Source: a bacterium
GTDB lineage: Bacteria; Babelota; Babeliae; Babelales; JABGSX01
Direction: 5' to 3'
NCBI GenBank assembly: GCA_018647505.1
Contig: JABGSX010000052.1
Location: 1 to 35,688, forward strand
DNA length: 35,688 bases
Each line of letters starts with the position of its first letter. Positions within the stretch are counted from its first letter, which is position 1. Under the pieces are notes generated by a model. That model was not told the DNA's origin, searched no databases, and was given only the letters and a program-made list of their open reading frames with translations. Position numbers and translations under genes: made by a program. Shown here one piece after another: positions 17,379 to 28,800 of the stretch.

Positions 17379-18296
17379 ATGAAGCCAGAAGCGTTTGACT
17401 TGGTAAAGTTATCGGTGTTATTTGTCTCTTCTTGTGATATTTCGCCTGGTTCACGTGCAACGTATAAAAATGCACTTCTGCGCTTTTGTCGGTGGTGTGA
17501 AAGTTCAGATGTAAAAGAGCCTGCCAGGCAAACTATCCTGTCATATAAGTTGTGGCTAGATACCCACGGGTTTAGCTCGTTTACAAAATCAACCTACATG
17601 GTTGTAGTACGCAGGCTTTTTTCGTGGCTTGAAGAAAATGATTTATACCCAGACGTATCAAAAGGAATAAGGGGGGCCAAACGTTATATTAAGTCCCATC
17701 AAAAGGATTCTCTTTCTATAAAGGCTGTTCAAAATTTGCTTGCAAGTGTTGATGGGTCATCGTTAATTGGGGTGCGTGATTTTGCAATCGTTAATTTGCT
17801 CATTCGGACGGGAGTGAGGTTAAAAGAAATTTCACTGGCAACAATTAATGATATAGAGATCAACGAAAATCAGATGCGGTTGTGGGTCTATGGGAAAGGG
17901 CGTGGCGGAAAAGATGAATTTGTTGTTCTTACCAAAGAATCTCTTGACCCAATAAGAGCTTACCTTCGTTGTAGAGAGTTAAGTAACTCGTCTGAACCGT
18001 TGTTCGCAGCACTCAGTAATCGTAACTATGGAAAAACAATGTCTACATTTGCTTTGTCAAAAATGGTGAAAAGAAGGCTGCGAGGAGCTGGAATCGATAG
18101 CAAAAGAATTTCGGCACATAGTTTGAGACATACTTTTGGGGTGTTGGCCATAAAGGCTGGGGCAAGCCTGTATGATGTTCAGTTGGCAATGCGGCATAGC
18201 ACACCCGGGACCACTGAAATCTATTTAGGCGATATTGAAAAAATAAAAAGAGCAGAGTCTTCTCCAGAGAAAAAAGTTCGGGATTTATTAAGATAA
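17379..18296 (+). CDS. Tyrosine recombinase (XerC/XerD-like)
   Basis: Catalytic pattern: R in LLIRTGVRLKEISLATI, K in GKGRGGKDEFV, HSLRHTFGV, MRHSTPGTTEIYLGDI; SAM-like N-terminal domain. Confidence 0.9.
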   Translation: MKPEAFDLVKLSVLFVSSCDISPGSRATYKNALLRFCRWCESSDVKEPARQTILSYKLWLDTHGFSSFTKSTYMVVVRRLFSWLEENDLYPDVSKGIRGAKRYIKSHQKDSLSIKAVQNLLASVDGSSLIGVRDFAIVNLLIRTGVRLKEISLATINDIEINENQMRLWVYGKGRGGKDEFVVLTKESLDPIRAYLRCRELSNSSEPLFAALSNRNYGKTMSTFALSKMVKRRLRGAGIDSKRISAHSLRHTFGVLAIKAGASLYDVQLAMRHSTPGTTEIYLGDIEKIKRAESSPEKKVRDLLR

Positions 18297-18437: not shown

Positions 18438-21400
18438 ATGAAGACTATTCTTAATAAAAAGATTTTTTTTCTATTTCTGTCTATTTCATTTTTATTGTCT
18501 AACAATATGAGCGCAAGTTGGCTTTCTGATATTGATCCTTTTGAGAAAAGTCTAAAAAATCAGAAGAGTGAATTTGTTGAAAGGCAAAAAGAAGAAAGGG
18601 TTGAGGCAGAGGCGCGACAAAAAAAAGAGCAACAATATATACTGGAAAAAAAGGCTGAGGAAACTTTGCAACAAAAAGAAAAGCACCAGTATACTTTGGA
18701 GGAAAATGCTGTTCATGTAGAAAATAATACAGGTTCGCCTATTTTTGTTTTAGCTGGTTGGAAGTACGCAGAAAAAGCTATTTTTCTTTCTGAAAAAATA
18801 GAATCGAAAAAAAATGGGGTTGCAGAATTTATTGGTGCGGAGCGGGCAACGTTATTATGGATTTTTTATGTTGATGACAAAAATCAAAAGAGTCAGCTTT
18901 TTAAGCTTCCTTCTTTGAAAAATAAAGGGCTTGAGGTTTATGATGGTTATATTGTTGAAGAAAGTGGAAAAAAAATAGAAGCAGAGCCTATTGTCATTTC
19001 AAAAAGCTTGAATGATTATATTTTTGGTTCTATTAAAAAAGGTGCTAACATTTCTTCTTCAATATCATTGCCAGAGCCTATAGAGCTAGATCCGTTAAAA
19101 AGGCTGTTAGAAAAAGGAAAAAAGTCGAACAATTTTACTGCAATAGAAAGCGTAGATTTAAATAATTATCTTAATGAAAATGATTATAAAAGTATTTCTG
19201 ACAGCCCTATAAAAGATGTTAATCCTCTTTTTAGAAATTGTTCTTTTGGTGGGGTTAAGTTTGGATCGGCAACGTTTAGGACTTGTCTTTTTAAAAAGAA
19301 CTCAAAATTGGATAATGCAATATTGGATGGAGCGAAACTTCCATTAATTAATATTTTTGACGGTTCATCAATGAAGAATGCTTCTTGTAAAAAAACTTAC
19401 TTTTCTTCGTCATGGGAAACAAAATTAAGCTATTTTGAGTCGGCACCAATTTTTTTAAATGTTGATTTTTCAGGAACAGATTTTTCCGGCGCAAAGTTTG
19501 AAAGATTTGGAATTGTTGGTTGCGATGCTACAGATTCTAATTTTGACTCTGCTAGTTTTAATACTGGTGCATTTGAAAAAATAAAGGGACTTAATAAGAT
19601 AAAAAACTTTAACAAGGCAAAGTTTGAAAATGTTACATTTGTTGATATAAATATGAGCGGAATAGATTTTTCAGGAATTAATTTAATAGATTGTAAGTTT
19701 TCTAATGTTACCGGAATTAATGGTTCAAGTTTTGATAATTCGGTTTTAAATAGGACAACTTTAAATGGATATGACTTTTCTAATAAAAACTTTAAAAATT
19801 GTTCATTTATTGAATCCAATTTATCAAATATAAATTTTGATGGGGCAGATTTATCAGGTGCCGATTTTAAAAAGACGAAGTTTTCTAAGGTAAATTTAAA
19901 TAATACTAATTTAAGTAGCGCAAAAAATCTAGAATTAACAACCTTATCTAAGCTTTCTATTAAAGGAGCAAATTTATCGGGCATAAATTTTGAAGGAATA
20001 GATTTTTCAGGAAAAGATCTGAGTGGTTGCAACTTTTCTGGATGCAATTTATCTAAAGCAAAGTTTGATAAAGCAAATCTTAATAATTCAAAATTTAATG
20101 GTGCAAATCTTTCTGGTGCATCATTTAGTGGTTCTTACATTCAAGGTGCAGATTTTACTGGTATAAAAAATTATAATAATTCAACATTTTTATCTTCAAA
20201 TGCGAATGATGAAACTAAATGGGTAGATGGCAAAAATATAAAATTTAATACCGCTTCAGTTTATGGTATTTCAATTGAAGGGAGAGATGGGTTTATTTTA
20301 GTTAATATGAGACCTGTTTCTTCTATAAGTTGTTGGGGCATATGGAAGAAAAAAGCCCAGGCTTCTTTAGTTTTAAGAAATATAGAAGCTGGTGGTGGCA
20401 TGGGAGAATGTAAGTTTATAGATTCTCGTGGGGCCGACTATTTATGGATTATAGAAAATGATGGAGCAAGTGGAGGCTCTGTATTTTCTATGCCAAAGGC
20501 AGGAGATTGTCTTTGTGCTTTCAGTGATGAAAACAGCTTATTAGATACCTATTTACAGAGTATGACATTTGGGGCAATTTATAAAAAAATAAATATAAAA
20601 TGGACTGGAAGTCTTGACCAAATAGCAAAGCAAAATAAGGTTCCATGGCTTGATGTTGCAAAATTAAACAATTTGGGTGCAATATTAATAACTTTAGGTT
20701 CTGTTAAAAATACATCAGGAAAAGTTGTTAATATTATTCCTAGTACAATTGTTCAAATTCCTTACAATCCGCTTAACTTGTCTTTGGGTAAGGTGAATCC
20801 GTTATATGAAAAAAGTATTAACTTAAAAAAATATTCATGGTACTCGGGCCGAAGTGAAGAATCCAAAATTCACTTTGTTCAGGCTAATAAAAAAATAAAC
20901 GGAGTGAGCTTTGAAAAAGCAAATATTTCCAAATATTTTAATGGAAAATTATTTAAAGGCTTTTTTCCTGGTACTGAATTTGATTCTTGCAATTTTGAAC
21001 ATGCTATATTGGACAGACTTGATTTAAGCCAAGTAACCTTTAAAAACTGTAATCTTAAACATGCTTCTTTTAAGCAATCAAATCTTTCTATGGCCGTTTT
21101 TTCTGAATGCAAAGGTGAAGATGTTGATTTTTCTATTGCAAATCTAGAAGGGGCAACGTTTAATACAAAGACTTATTCTAGTGGATATTTTTACAATTCC
21201 AATTTTAATAAAACAAACCTCAAGGACGTTGTTTTTGGCGGAACCTTTGGAGGCCTAAAAAATCTAAAAGATTCTATAAACTATAAAACAATTAAATTTG
21301 CGAAAACCTGTAGTTTATTTGGAGATTTTAGTGGTTTGAATCTTTCTGGAATGAATTTTTCTGGTGTTGGCTTTGGTGGAACAACAAATTTCAAAGGTGC

Positions 21401-24173
21401 AAACTTACAAAAAGCCAACTTTTCAAATTCGGATTTTAGTGGAGTTGATTTTGAAAATGCAAACTTAAATAATTCTATTTTTGACAATCCCCAAGTTAGT
21501 TATGGTAAAAAAGGATGCCCGTCATTTAAAGGGGCACAATTGAGAAACGTAAAAATTACTCCACTATTTAATTTTTCAATTAGAATAGGGCCGATTAACT
21601 TTTCTGGCGCTGATTTGCGTGGTGCTGATATGACAGCTTTAAAAGAAAATGATAATCCATTTTGGCAGCTTGTAAAAATTAGTCATTATAAGGATTATAA
21701 ACCGGTTTATAATTTTTCAACAATAAAAGGAGCGTGTGTAGACAAAAACACAAAATGGATTGATGGAAGGTCTGCAGCTAAACATAAAAAATCTATTGCA
21801 AGTTATGGTATGTGTTTTGACCAATGGCCTTGCCCTAATTTTTTAAATATGACAACACGCAAAACCATTACGGGAAATAATTTTTCGAATATGAAAATAT
21901 CAAAACTTCTTTCTGGAAAAAATATAAAAACAAATATTTTTACTAATTGTGTGTTCGATTATTGTGATATGTCAGAGCTGAATCTTTCTAGCAAGACTTT
22001 CAAGAATTGTTCTTTTATTGGAACAATTCTGAAAAATGTAGATTTTAAAAATTCATCTTGTATAAATACAAAATTTGATAAATCTATAGTTTATGAGGCA
22101 GATTTTTCTGGTGCAAATCTCTCTGGAGCATTGTTTAATTCAGCAGACCTAAAGGGGGTCAAGAATATAAATAAAGCAAAAAATATATCGTCTGTTTTTG
22201 ATTTTGATAACGCTGATTTAAGCGGGATTGACTTGTCTGGTATTTCTTGGAAGCAAAGAAAGACAAATAAAAAGAGAACATCCATTAAGCATGTTGTTGA
22301 CGCAAAGCAAGAAGAAAAGTTTTCAGCCTTAGCCAAATTTAATTCTAGCTCTTATGACTCAATTGGCGAAGGTGCCTTTGGTGGATATAAGCTAAAAATG
22401 AAACAAGAAACTGTTGTTAGTTCAGACTATATAAAAACAGGACCTTCATTTGTTGGAGCTAAAATGGCTGGTGTAAATCTTAAGAATTCTTCATTGAAAG
22501 AGTCATGGTTTAGCGGTGCGGATCTTACAGGAGCAATTTTAAACAATGCAGATGTTCAAGGCTCTTTATTTGCTAATGCAGTACTTGTAAAAGCTGATTT
22601 ACGAGGAGCCAACTTAAAAGACGCTCGATATTTTGGCAGTAAATGTTCAAGTTCAGACCTTAAAGCTGCAGTTACAGACTTAACGATGGGGAACAATTCA
22701 GAAAAAATAAGCAATAAACTATTAAAAGATGCTGTTTTGGATAGCAATACAACATGGTTGGGTGGATATAAAGTAGCAAAAGAAACGATAAGCGTTAATG
22801 CGGGGACTCTTTTTGTGCCTTTTTATTGGTGGGCAGACTCTTTGTTTGAAGGTTCTTTGAATATATTAAAAAATCCAAAAATAATTTTAAGACACATAAA
22901 TAAAAATAATATGTATTTTCTAATAAATGATAACTATCATTCTTTGTCAAAAAAGACCTCTGAGCATTCAAGTGGAAATAAATTCTTTAGTTCTGTATAT
23001 AAAAGATTAGGGAAGAATAAAACAATAAGAGAGGTAGATTTTTTCTTTGTGGATTCAGGCGTTAACTTAGGAATTAAAAGTAGTTACGGATATTTTTTTG
23101 GTTCTATTGGTGACTATAATATTAATCCTAATGCAGCAAAAAATGCAAAAAAGCTTGAAAATGAAAACGACGTAAAGGTTTTAATTGATATTTCCAGCAG
23201 CGATAGTTCAATAAATAATTCAAATAAGCCTATTGATGTATGGAAAAATACTAATCTAAATGCCTCAGGAAAATTAGTAAAAAATTATGTATCCATATAT
23301 AAAATGAGCGAGAAAGAGTTAATTTTTAAAATAGACGATAGATTTTACTTAAAAGGTTCGGCTGTAAGCCGTTTATCATCAATCGATAAGTTTGATGAGT
23401 ATTTAAAAAACTCCACAAACGGGTCGTTTGTTAAGAATCTTCCTATTATAAAAAAAGTAACCATATATAAAGCCCATGTTAATGGAATCCATTATTACCA
23501 GTGGAAAATAGATCTTAAAAAGTCTTTTGTAAATTCACAAGGGGTTAAAGCAAGCACTTTATATTATATATGGAGCGGTATTATTAGTAATAGATATTAC
23601 TATTTTGGTTCAAAAACTTTAGAAATTTGCAAAATTCCTGGAATTTCTGTTTTAAGCGCAGACAGTGAAGGTTCAATGTTGGCAGAAATTAATGGGAAAA
23701 AAAATTATCTTACAGGTCTTCCGCTTGAAGTCTCTGCAATTAAAAGCATTTTGAAAAAAAATGGATTTAAGGTTGGTGTAAATACCATTAAGAAAGATCC
23801 AAAATATTCTAAGCTTGTTAAAAATTGGCTAAAAGACTCCTGGTTAAAAATGAATATCCCAAAAGAAGTTCAGAATAAAATACATTTAAGTCTAGGAAAA
23901 GAGTGGAAGGCAATGGGTATTGAGCTTTTACTAGGTTCATTTAAAAATCTTGCAGACTTGCCAAAAAACTTGGTGGAGAATACTTTTGGAATTGGGCATA
24001 GTCATCATCATAATCATATAAAAGAAAATACTTCTGTGATGAGTAGTTTATTATCTGTGGATTTAAAATTTTCTGGCGAAGACGTTTATTTAAAGATATC
24101 AATAGGGCTTACAGATAAAACAACAGTTTCTTATGTTTCGAAAGACCCAATTTTTACTTTTAAAAAAGGATAA
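18438..24173 (+). CDS. Giant secreted pentapeptide-repeat protein (1911 aa), array member 1 (type A)
   Basis: Signal peptide MKTILNKKIFFLFLSISFLLSNNMSA; several blocks of A(N/D)(L/F)xx repeats; internal copy of the shared module; C-terminal non-repeat domain with HSHHHNH. Confidence 0.9.
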   Translation: MKTILNKKIFFLFLSISFLLSNNMSASWLSDIDPFEKSLKNQKSEFVERQKEERVEAEARQKKEQQYILEKKAEETLQQKEKHQYTLEENAVHVENNTGSPIFVLAGWKYAEKAIFLSEKIESKKNGVAEFIGAERATLLWIFYVDDKNQKSQLFKLPSLKNKGLEVYDGYIVEESGKKIEAEPIVISKSLNDYIFGSIKKGANISSSISLPEPIELDPLKRLLEKGKKSNNFTAIESVDLNNYLNENDYKSISDSPIKDVNPLFRNCSFGGVKFGSATFRTCLFKKNSKLDNAILDGAKLPLINIFDGSSMKNASCKKTYFSSSWETKLSYFESAPIFLNVDFSGTDFSGAKFERFGIVGCDATDSNFDSASFNTGAFEKIKGLNKIKNFNKAKFENVTFVDINMSGIDFSGINLIDCKFSNVTGINGSSFDNSVLNRTTLNGYDFSNKNFKNCSFIESNLSNINFDGADLSGADFKKTKFSKVNLNNTNLSSAKNLELTTLSKLSIKGANLSGINFEGIDFSGKDLSGCNFSGCNLSKAKFDKANLNNSKFNGANLSGASFSGSYIQGADFTGIKNYNNSTFLSSNANDETKWVDGKNIKFNTASVYGISIEGRDGFILVNMRPVSSISCWGIWKKKAQASLVLRNIEAGGGMGECKFIDSRGADYLWIIENDGASGGSVFSMPKAGDCLCAFSDENSLLDTYLQSMTFGAIYKKINIKWTGSLDQIAKQNKVPWLDVAKLNNLGAILITLGSVKNTSGKVVNIIPSTIVQIPYNPLNLSLGKVNPLYEKSINLKKYSWYSGRSEESKIHFVQANKKINGVSFEKANISKYFNGKLFKGFFPGTEFDSCNFEHAILDRLDLSQVTFKNCNLKHASFKQSNLSMAVFSECKGEDVDFSIANLEGATFNTKTYSSGYFYNSNFNKTNLKDVVFGGTFGGLKNLKDSINYKTIKFAKTCSLFGDFSGLNLSGMNFSGVGFGGTTNFKGANLQKANFSNSDFSGVDFENANLNNSIFDNPQVSYGKKGCPSFKGAQLRNVKITPLFNFSIRIGPINFSGADLRGADMTALKENDNPFWQLVKISHYKDYKPVYNFSTIKGACVDKNTKWIDGRSAAKHKKSIASYGMCFDQWPCPNFLNMTTRKTITGNNFSNMKISKLLSGKNIKTNIFTNCVFDYCDMSELNLSSKTFKNCSFIGTILKNVDFKNSSCINTKFDKSIVYEADFSGANLSGALFNSADLKGVKNINKAKNISSVFDFDNADLSGIDLSGISWKQRKTNKKRTSIKHVVDAKQEEKFSALAKFNSSSYDSIGEGAFGGYKLKMKQETVVSSDYIKTGPSFVGAKMAGVNLKNSSLKESWFSGADLTGAILNNADVQGSLFANAVLVKADLRGANLKDARYFGSKCSSSDLKAAVTDLTMGNNSEKISNKLLKDAVLDSNTTWLGGYKVAKETISVNAGTLFVPFYWWADSLFEGSLNILKNPKIILRHINKNNMYFLINDNYHSLSKKTSEHSSGNKFFSSVYKRLGKNKTIREVDFFFVDSGVNLGIKSSYGYFFGSIGDYNINPNAAKNAKKLENENDVKVLIDISSSDSSINNSNKPIDVWKNTNLNASGKLVKNYVSIYKMSEKELIFKIDDRFYLKGSAVSRLSSIDKFDEYLKNSTNGSFVKNLPIIKKVTIYKAHVNGIHYYQWKIDLKKSFVNSQGVKASTLYYIWSGIISNRYYYFGSKTLEICKIPGISVLSADSEGSMLAEINGKKNYLTGLPLEVSAIKSILKKNGFKVGVNTIKKDPKYSKLVKNWLKDSWLKMNIPKEVQNKIHLSLGKEWKAMGIELLLGSFKNLADLPKNLVENTFGIGHSHHHNHIKENTSVMSSLLSVDLKFSGEDVYLKISIGLTDKTTVSYVSKDPIFTFKKG
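20286..20612 (+). other. Internal copy of shared FILINND/SGGS module in the 1911-aa protein
   Basis: DGFILVNMRPVSSISCWGIWKKKAQASLVLRNIEAGGGMGECKFIDSRGADYLWIIENDGASGGSVFSMPKAGDCLCAFSDENSLLDTYLQSMTFGAIYKKINIKWTG aligns to the N-terminus of the other array members. Confidence 0.85.
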
Positions 24174-25815: not shown

Positions 25816-28800
25816 ATGAATAGCGGTGTGAAATTTAGGATCATTTTATCGATATCAATTTTATTTGGTTTCTTTTGCTCATCAAGGGCGGATTTTATTT
25901 TGATCAATAATGATTCTATGAAGCCAATAAGCATTTGGGGGGTCTGGAAAAAGAAGGCTCAGGCAGTATTGCTAAATAAAGAAATTTCGCCTGGGATGGG
26001 CATGGCCTCTATTTCTACTTTAATGGCAAAGGGCGCAACTCACATCTGGGTTATTCAAAATTGTGGTTTAAGTGGTGGTTCTATATTTTTAATGCCGAAA
26101 AACAACGACTGCTTGTATGTTTATTCTGATCAGAATTGTAATTTAGATTCATACTTAGATAGCGTTGCGTTTGGAAATTTTTATAAAAAGTTAAATCAGA
26201 AATGGTGTGGCAATGTTAGTAACTTTGCAACAAAAATTCAGGACATGGCTAATGAAGTTAGAATTTCATATGCAAAAAGGGGGGTTGTGTTTAACCTAAA
26301 ATACTCTCCTTTTGATCTCTCTTACCAAAAAATAAACAAAAATTATAGTTCTACCGATCCTGTTTATACTGGTGTGCCAACAGATGAAAATCTTAAAAAT
26401 TTGGTGTCTAACGAGTATGGGCATACTATGTATAATGCTGACTTTAGTAATTATAATGGATCTGTTAAACCTTCAATTGCAAAGTTTGTTAATAATAATG
26501 GTGGAACAATAAGAAAAGCCATCTTTATTCAATGTAAATTTGATTCTTCGGATTTAAAAGGATTAGACCTGGATGATATATTGTTTCAGGATTGTTCTTT
26601 TAAAGGGGCTAATTTGGCAGGAACAAGTCTGAAAAATACAAGTTTTACTATTACAGAAGGATCGTTGAAAAACATTAGTTTTGCTAATTCAAATTTGACT
26701 GGTTCTCAGTTTATTAATTCAGAAATTGAAAAAGGGGACTTTTCAAAATCTAAACTTTTTGGAGCTAATTTTTCTGGTGCAAGCTTGGTAAATTGTAATT
26801 TTAACGGATTGAGTTTTAATAAAGTTGATTTGCGTGGAGCTGCAAGCCTTAAGGGCTCGACTTTTAAAAAATCAATTTTTAGGGGTGCTAAATTTAACGA
26901 TAAAACTAATTTTACTGGGGCAATTTTAGATCAAGCCATCTTTGATCATATAAATTTGTCTGGAATAAAGTTTGAAGATGTTTCTATGATAGGAGCTTCA
27001 TTTAATTTATCAACTTTTGTTCGTAAGGTTAAAGGGGCTCGAGTAAAATTTTTAGGCGTAAAAACTTTTTTAGTGAAAAAAATTAGAACGAGTTTTAAAA
27101 ATGTAATTTTTTCTACTAAAGCAAATAAGAGTGATTTTTCTAAATTAGATTTTAACGGTGCGGCATTTAATAATGTGCAGTTTAATGGGGCAAACCTTAC
27201 AAATACAAAGTTCATTGGATCTATATTTAAAGGGGCTAGCAGTTTTAATGGGTCGATATTAAAAAATACTAACTTTAAAGGCTCATTTCTAAATGGCGTT
27301 GACCTTAGAGGCATTGCTGGTAAAAAAATTGATACAGCAATTTTAAATAGCGTTGATTTGAGCCATGCAAAAATAGCTGGTATTTCTTTTGACGGGAATA
27401 AGAATCTAAGCTACACAAATTTTTCCAAAAATGATCTTACCGGATGTAGCTTTAAAAATACAGTATTGATAGATTCAAATTTTGGCCAACAAAAAAAACT
27501 ATCCTGTAATTTTTCTGGATCAAATTGTAGTATGGCGAATTTTTCAGATTCTAATTTAATGTCGTGTTATTTTACAGCTGCAAATTGTAGCAATGCAAAT
27601 TTCTCAAAATCTACTTTAGCATCATGCAATTTTACAGCTTTAGGGCCAACTACTGCTAAATTAACAAGCGCAAATTTATCTTCTACAAAAATAAAAAATA
27701 CAAATTTTTCGAGCGCAGATTGTAGCAGTGCAAATTTTGGTTCATCGAATATTGATACGTGTCTTTTTAAGGATAATTCTAAGTTAACAAGCGCTAATTT
27801 ATCGTCCGCTACAATAAAGAATACGAATTTTACAGGTGCAAAATGTAGTATGGCGAATTTTTCAAAATCAACATTAACATCTTGTTTGTTTACTATTTCT
27901 AATTTAATAAAGGCTAAATATTCTCATTCTATATTAGATAAAAATAATTTTGTTGGTGCAAATTGCAACAATGCTGATTTTTCAAATTCAACATTAACAT
28001 CATGTAACTTTACTGCTTGGGGACCAACTACTGCTAAATTAACAAGCGCAAATTTATCTTCTACAAAAATAAAAAATACAAATTTTTCGAGCGCAGATTG
28101 CAGCAGTGCAAATTTTGGTTCATCGAATATTGATACGTGTCTTTTTAAGGATAATTCTAAGTTAACAAGCGCTAATTTATCGTCCGCGACAATAAAAAAT
28201 ACAAATTTTACAGGTGCAAGTTGCAGTATGGCGAATTTTGGTGCATCGAATATTAAAGCATGCAATTTTACATCCTCAACATTAAAAAAGGCTTATTTTG
28301 GTGATTCAAAAATACAATCGACAAAATTTGTCTCAGCAAATTGTATTGGGGCAAATTTTGTACATATAAACAGGACAGAAGGAACTAATGGTTATGATGC
28401 TGCGGATTGTAACTTTAATGATGCAACTTTGGTAAATGCTAAGTTTAATGCGTCCTCATTGATAGGGTCAACTTTTGCTGGTGCTAATTGTACGATTGCG
28501 GATTTTTCATATTCTTGTATTTGTGCGGCACCAGAAACCTGTGGAAGTAGTTTTTCTGGAGCAACATTGAGATCTGCAAAATTTGTGGGGGCTACCGCTA
28601 AACATACAGACTTTACGGAAGTGACAGGTCAGTATGCAAATTTTTCAAAATCTAATTGCTCGCACTCTATTTTTGATTATGCAAATTTTGGTTCAACATC
28701 TGCTGGTCATGATCAGGCTGACTTTAGTAATGCGACATTAATTGGAGCGAGTTTTTCTGCATCTATAATAGACTATGTTTCTTTTAGTTCTTCAAATCTT

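Follow-up and report, generated by a model that had tools for sequence, protein, structure and literature searches.

The cysteines that form a ladder-like pattern in the long rod of a putatively exported pentapeptide-repeat protein of the Babeliales are best explained as ordinary residues of the rod core, with thiols that are most likely free and buried, and with a pattern that was spread by coil duplication. We give this reading a probability of about 0.75. On this reading, a Cys at position i would act as a small space-filling residue next to two Phe side chains that face each other, and a Cys at i-2 would be one of the small residues normally accepted at that corner, while the apparent ladder would have spread through duplicated coils and coil pairs, the latest being a 126-residue block. 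Fold periodicity, the duplication of coils and packing that depends on Phe can thus account for even a striking cysteine ladder in an exported repeat protein.

The 1055-aa Protein and Its Putative Export

The window analysed here is a stretch of 35,688 nucleotides. It holds a cluster of five related pentapeptide-repeat genes, the gene of the 1055-aa protein among them. The parts of this gene are as follows:

25816..28983, plus strand: pentapeptide-repeat protein, 1055 aa, putatively exported (ORF call; Pfam PF00805, E=1.5e-72)
25816..25890, plus strand: putative Sec signal peptide, residues 1-25 (by sequence inspection: basic start, hydrophobic core, SRA followed by D)
25891..26430, plus strand: N-terminal exported domain, residues 26-205 (first 100 residues predicted to be largely beta-sandwich; 8-9 copies, this genome only)

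The match to the PF00805 profile reaches 239 bits (cut-off 20.2), and the protein contains at least eight consecutive pentapeptide repeats. The rod extends from about residue 235 to the end, thus comprising about 800 residues. The frame 25816..28983 is translated, since the copies of the 126-aa duplication described below differ only synonymously over 195 nt. A 113-aa antisense ORF (27924-28265, minus strand) probably just shadows the repetitive sequence of the coding strand. Judged by inspection, the N-terminus is signal-peptide-like, so that the export proposed in the initial annotation seems likely; the same putative layout recurs in most paralogs, again by inspection, and the genome carries two secretin genes.

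Predicted Fold of the Rod and Register of the Cysteines

To obtain a fold model, residues 506-880 were submitted to AlphaFold2 (AF2) as single-sequence input. In the resulting model (pLDDT 87.8, pTM 0.86, with pLDDT >90 across most of the Cys-rich segment), strands recur at 20 residues, and coils of 25 and 21 residues occur at the inserted loops. Together with the PF00805 match, the model predicts a right-handed quadrilateral beta-helix with 20-residue coils, as the initial annotation had supposed. The best matches found by Foldseek were pentapeptide-repeat proteins, with HetL at the top (E=1.6e-10); the long-range TM values were low (0.14-0.29) because curvature differs between long rods.

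The pentapeptide positions were placed by a register HMM that disregards Cys. This model assigns the Cys of CNF and CYF to i-2 and the Cys of NC, DC and KC to i, in accordance with the coil phase of 20 residues in the AF2 model, so that the earlier assignment of CYF to i-2 and of ANC to i was correct. By the AF2 coil phase, the face-1 i-2 residues are 544, 564, 584, 604, 629, 649, 670 and 690 in coils 0-7, and 710, 730, 755, 775, 796, 816 and 836 in coils 8-14. C843 is placed at i by the register model, and C865 lies within an irregular stretch. In the segment 562-869, 16 of the 17 cysteines face inward (i-2 or i), just as had been claimed. Any inward column in a pentapeptide fold must show a 20-residue period.

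Cysteines Alternate Between Two Faces of the Rod

The features of the Cys-rich part of the rod are the following:

27445..28383, plus strand: residues 544-856, the Cys-rich part of the rod (coils 0-14), in which two coil types alternate (AF2 DSSP phase, coil table)
27445..27627, plus strand: consecutive coils bearing Cys, here only; C544, C564, C584, C604 at i-2 of face 1; C571, C591 at i of face 2
27646..27840, plus strand: internal duplication, first copy, residues 611-675 (97.9% nt identity to 28024-28218)
28024..28218, plus strand: internal duplication, second copy, residues 737-801 (378 nt spacing)

The segment contains 17 Cys in 308 residues vs. an expectation of 4.8 based on the genome's other rods, about 3.5 times as many (Poisson p about 1e-5, and about 2e-5 after removal of the duplicated block). 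The alternation of 7 and 13 residues described in the initial annotation is exact for residues 562-604 (nt 27499-27627), where Cys 564, 571, 584, 591 and 604 are spaced by 7, 13, 7 and 13, and it stops there: beyond residue 604 the spacings are 32, 13, 28, 13, 27, 13, 32, 13, 28, 13 and 27, so that the step of 13 persists while the return step becomes 27, 28 or 32. When the Cys of residues 562-869 were shuffled among the inward positions, lag 13 was significant (7 observed vs. 0.8 expected), and weaker signals were seen at lags 40/41 and 126. Neither lag 20 (three occurrences, p=0.13) nor lag 7 (two occurrences, p=0.20) differed significantly from the shuffles in this segment, and a strict 20-residue Cys period across the whole of it was therefore rejected. 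The last cysteines of the protein are at 901, 903, 909 and 948, with none at the C-terminal end.

The coil table shows how this pattern is built. In the order of coils 0-14, the face-1 i-2 residues are C C C C T C T C N C T C T C T, and the face-2 i residues are L C C L C L C L C L C L C L C. In coils 3-14 the two Cys columns are exact complements, the gaps in alternate coils being filled by Thr/Asn on face 1 and by Leu on face 2. The 13-residue step arises because a face-2 Cys in one coil is followed by a face-1 Cys in the next. The two stacked Cys columns that had been proposed are thus confined to coils 0-3 on face 1 and to coils 1-2 on face 2, where Cys of adjacent coils are aligned; in coils 3-14 adjacent coils show no such alignment, an outcome that the initial annotation itself had named as speaking against its reading, and each column is broken at every other coil. 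Hence the ladder was correctly noticed, though over-read, and the observation is partly confirmed.

The duplication accounts for part of the regularity. Coils 3-6 were recently copied to give coils 9-12, at an offset of 126 residues, and the copies are 97.9% identical over 195 nt, with four synonymous and no nonsynonymous codon differences. Since lag 126 reflects this recent internal duplication, the Cys in the two copies are not independent; lags 40 and 41 are likewise explained by duplication. Between coils 0-8, nucleotide identity is 61% at lag 2 vs. 52% at lag 1, coils of one type thus being closer to each other than to their neighbours, and an older duplication of coil pairs is indicated at the nucleotide level. 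The Cys-rich segment has no one-to-one relative.

Disulfide Bonds Between Stacked Cysteines Are Unlikely

Distances were derived from ideal geometry, in which 46 clash-free solutions were obtained for 5-residue repeats closing to a screw of 90 degrees and 1.2 A, and not from AF2 coordinates. For Cys 7 or 13 residues apart, the Cb-Cb distance is at least 11.8 A in all the solutions, which in this geometry rules out cross-core disulfides between them. By the assumed rise, Cys of the same column are 4.8 A apart at 20 residues and 9.6 A apart at 40 residues. A relaxed disulfide would have a Cb-Cb distance slightly shorter than 4.8 A.

This leaves vertical disulfides between stacked Cys of adjacent coils (C544-C564, C584-C604, C571-C591, C240-C260), which might staple parts of an exported rod and which we consider unlikely. 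The candidate partners are 20 residues apart in one column, at about 4.8 A by the assumed coil rise, and the signal-like start of the protein fits such a role, as do the invariance of C240 and C260 in eight paralogs and the behaviour of C108 and C131 in the N-terminal domain, which are either both present or both absent in the aligned paralogs. However, for most ladder Cys the next coil holds no Cys, the alternate-coil distance being 9.6 A. Moreover, i-2 Cys is common in this fold, including Qnr-type matches such as QnrB1; proteins of the QnrB1 type are cytoplasmic and protect gyrase. Another argument against such bonds comes from the genome (89.8% complete), where no match to DsbA, DsbB, VKOR or Thioredoxin_4 was detected. 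Among 84 Babeliales genomes, DsbA exceeded the cut-off in 1 and VKOR in 15, and most Babeliales appear from their gene content to lack the usual disulfide-forming enzymes. Because these enzymes were not detected, enzyme-driven disulfides in the 1055-aa rod are unlikely but not impossible: given the completeness of the assembly and VKOR in 15/84 relatives, an oxidase could be absent from the assembly, or it could be of another kind. Taken together, the geometry and the missing oxidative-folding genes disfavour the disulfides suggested in the initial annotation.

C240 and C260 (26533-26595, plus strand) form a vertically stacked i-2 pair, 20 residues apart, in the first rod coils. The pair is invariant in all eight aligned paralogs, is also seen in rods lacking a recovered N-terminal domain (L141:1, L142), and is better conserved than the Cys ladder. 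Should a stacked pair have a redox role at all, C240/C260 would be the more promising candidate.

Cysteine at Position i Lies Mostly Between Phenylalanine-Bearing Faces

The two alternating coil types differ in their cores. In one of them, the inward i-residues are Phe-Cys-Phe-Leu/Ile, with the Cys on face 2 and usually Thr or Asn at i-2 on face 1; in the other, they are mostly Phe-Leu-Leu-Ile, with Cys at i-2 on face 1 and Leu on face 2. An i-2 Cys is nothing unusual in the pentapeptide fold: its frequency is 5.7% in the other rods of the genome and 4.5% in other Babeliae, and the published i-2 consensus of pentapeptide repeats includes C (PMC8145042). At i, Cys makes up about 1.2-1.5% of residues elsewhere and is unusual.

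The faces adjoining an i-position Cys bear Phe in 19/21 cases after it and in 16/19 cases before it. In the own genome of the protein, with the duplicate removed, Cys was found at i in 13/176 Phe-X-Phe contexts vs. 3/547 elsewhere (p=2e-6). The enrichment is also seen when the 1055-aa protein is left out (5/140 vs. 3/489, p=0.016) and in other Babeliae (3/83 vs. 3/616, p=0.025), and pooling without the 1055-aa protein gives p=7e-4. We read this as packing, with a small residue between two Phe opposed across the core; of the options listed in the initial annotation, core packing is thus the favoured one. It also offers a testable packing rule for the design of pentapeptide-repeat proteins, namely an i-position Cys between two Phe-bearing faces. 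Two odd-type coils (coil 7, FLYL, and coil 13, FLFI) have Leu between aromatic neighbours; therefore, Cys is not obligatory between aromatic faces. The constancy of core volume per coil did not differ significantly from shuffles (p about 0.09-0.10), and a constant core volume was dropped as proof of packing.

The same data bear on the idea that the Cys have no role of their own and were fixed at tolerant core positions by neutral drift and coil duplication. The 126-aa duplication and the alternating coil families would explain lags 13, 40 and 126, i-2 Cys is ordinary, and conservation of the ladder is not seen outside the 1055-aa protein. Nevertheless, the confinement of i-position Cys to Phe-X-Phe exceeds chance and extends to other genomes, which suggests that packing constrains where such a Cys is tolerated and makes drift with duplication alone rather improbable. 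It is highly doubtful that a 40-residue core code (Phe-Cys-Phe-Leu / Phe-Leu-Leu-Ile) tunes the twist or stiffness of the rod, with the Cys of coils 0-3 and C240/C260 as vertical redox staples switching between the bacterial envelope and the reducing cytosol of the host. Metal ions (zinc, copper or Fe-S) held by the Cys columns, also proposed in the initial annotation and supported by the high local Cys content, can practically be dismissed, since at least 11.8 A (Cb) separates the two columns, the distance between Cys within a column is mostly 9.6 A, ideal geometry yields no four-thiol site anywhere in the rod, no His or acidic partner occupies an inward position, and the ligands would sit in a Phe/Leu/Ile core.

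Comparison with Other Cysteine-Containing Solenoids

Like the members of the PF00805 family with known structure (HetL, 3DU1; QnrB1, 2XTW; Np275/276, 2J8K), the 1055-aa rod has the A(N/D)(F/L)xx consensus and, in its predicted fold, four repeats per coil. Unlike typical members, it has a much longer rod (about 800 residues), a putative signal peptide and a genome-specific N-terminal domain, and its strict alternation involves Cys at i, a position for which the published consensus gives L/F. The protein can be regarded as an ordinary, long and putatively exported member of a known fold, in which the alternation is a local variation.

Regular Cys inside a beta-helix also occur in TmAFP, a disulfide-braced antifreeze protein whose Cys are paired within the coil across a narrow core. 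The core of the 1055-aa rod is too wide for this (Cb-Cb at least 11.8 A), and most of its coils hold a single Cys at i or i-2, with no within-coil pair at disulfide distance.

Solenoids with ladders of free cysteines have been described before. The beta-helix of the fucoidan lyase FdlA has five stacked interior Cys that form no disulfides, and its authors propose a stabilising role for them (PMC9410043); a cysteine ladder in the LRR solenoid of InlJ is named in a title cited in PMC3196904. In both, as in part of the predicted 1055-aa rod, the Cys side chains are stacked inside the solenoid. However, FdlA is a beta-helix of a different type, where the five Cys occupy consecutive coils 4-8, whereas here the stacking runs through just four successive coils of face 1 and through two of face 2, with alternation in coils 3-14.

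YjbI of Caulobacter, a secreted pentapeptide-repeat protein, has maleimide-reactive thiols (PMC12864828), and therefore exported repeat proteins can carry reduced Cys. The two proteins share a pentapeptide beta-helix, with export being putative in our case, and a Cys pair where the helix starts at its N-terminal side. YjbI comprises 183 residues, with a Cys pair at each end as well as an outer-membrane C-terminal tail (PMC12864828). The 1055-aa protein showed neither a C-terminal pair nor a tail to match these, and its helix is flanked by a Cys pair only at the N-terminal end (C240/C260).

Paralogs and Genomic Context

The genome (1.08 Mb) has 97 PF00805 matches and 8-9 copies of the N-terminal domain. 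Its RecA places it in Babeliales/Dependentiae, three of the best four hits bearing such a label. Relatives of this domain were found neither in GTDB contigs nor in 100 other genomes of the class nor in IMG/VR, save for matches to the rod part. Its fold gave no convincing PDB match, the hits being to repeat parts or weak ones to the HGSNAT luminal domain (E at least 0.02). Those Dependentiae whose biology is known live as intracellular parasites in protists and export many repeat proteins (PMC4378268, PMC6561590). Our data document a genome-specific expansion of long, putatively exported pentapeptide rods in a genome of the Babeliales (Dependentiae), a group in which repeat expansions usually concern ankyrin proteins.

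A tyrosine recombinase of the phage integrase family (17379-18296) is encoded directly upstream of the pentapeptide cluster and may be linked to its acquisition or rearrangement. After its first rod, the 1911-aa protein (18438-24173) has the N-terminal domain a second time, as an internal copy starting at 20247, and from its sequence it looks like a fusion of two proteins that each consisted of an N-terminal domain and a rod. Another paralog starts at 35179-35688 and is truncated by the contig end. Judged by eye, the 1911-aa protein and the 1384-aa protein (29008-33162) seem to have a non-repeat C-terminal region in common, with endings that resemble LYLRVNIKTTDNKV...DPIFTF/APVWTL.
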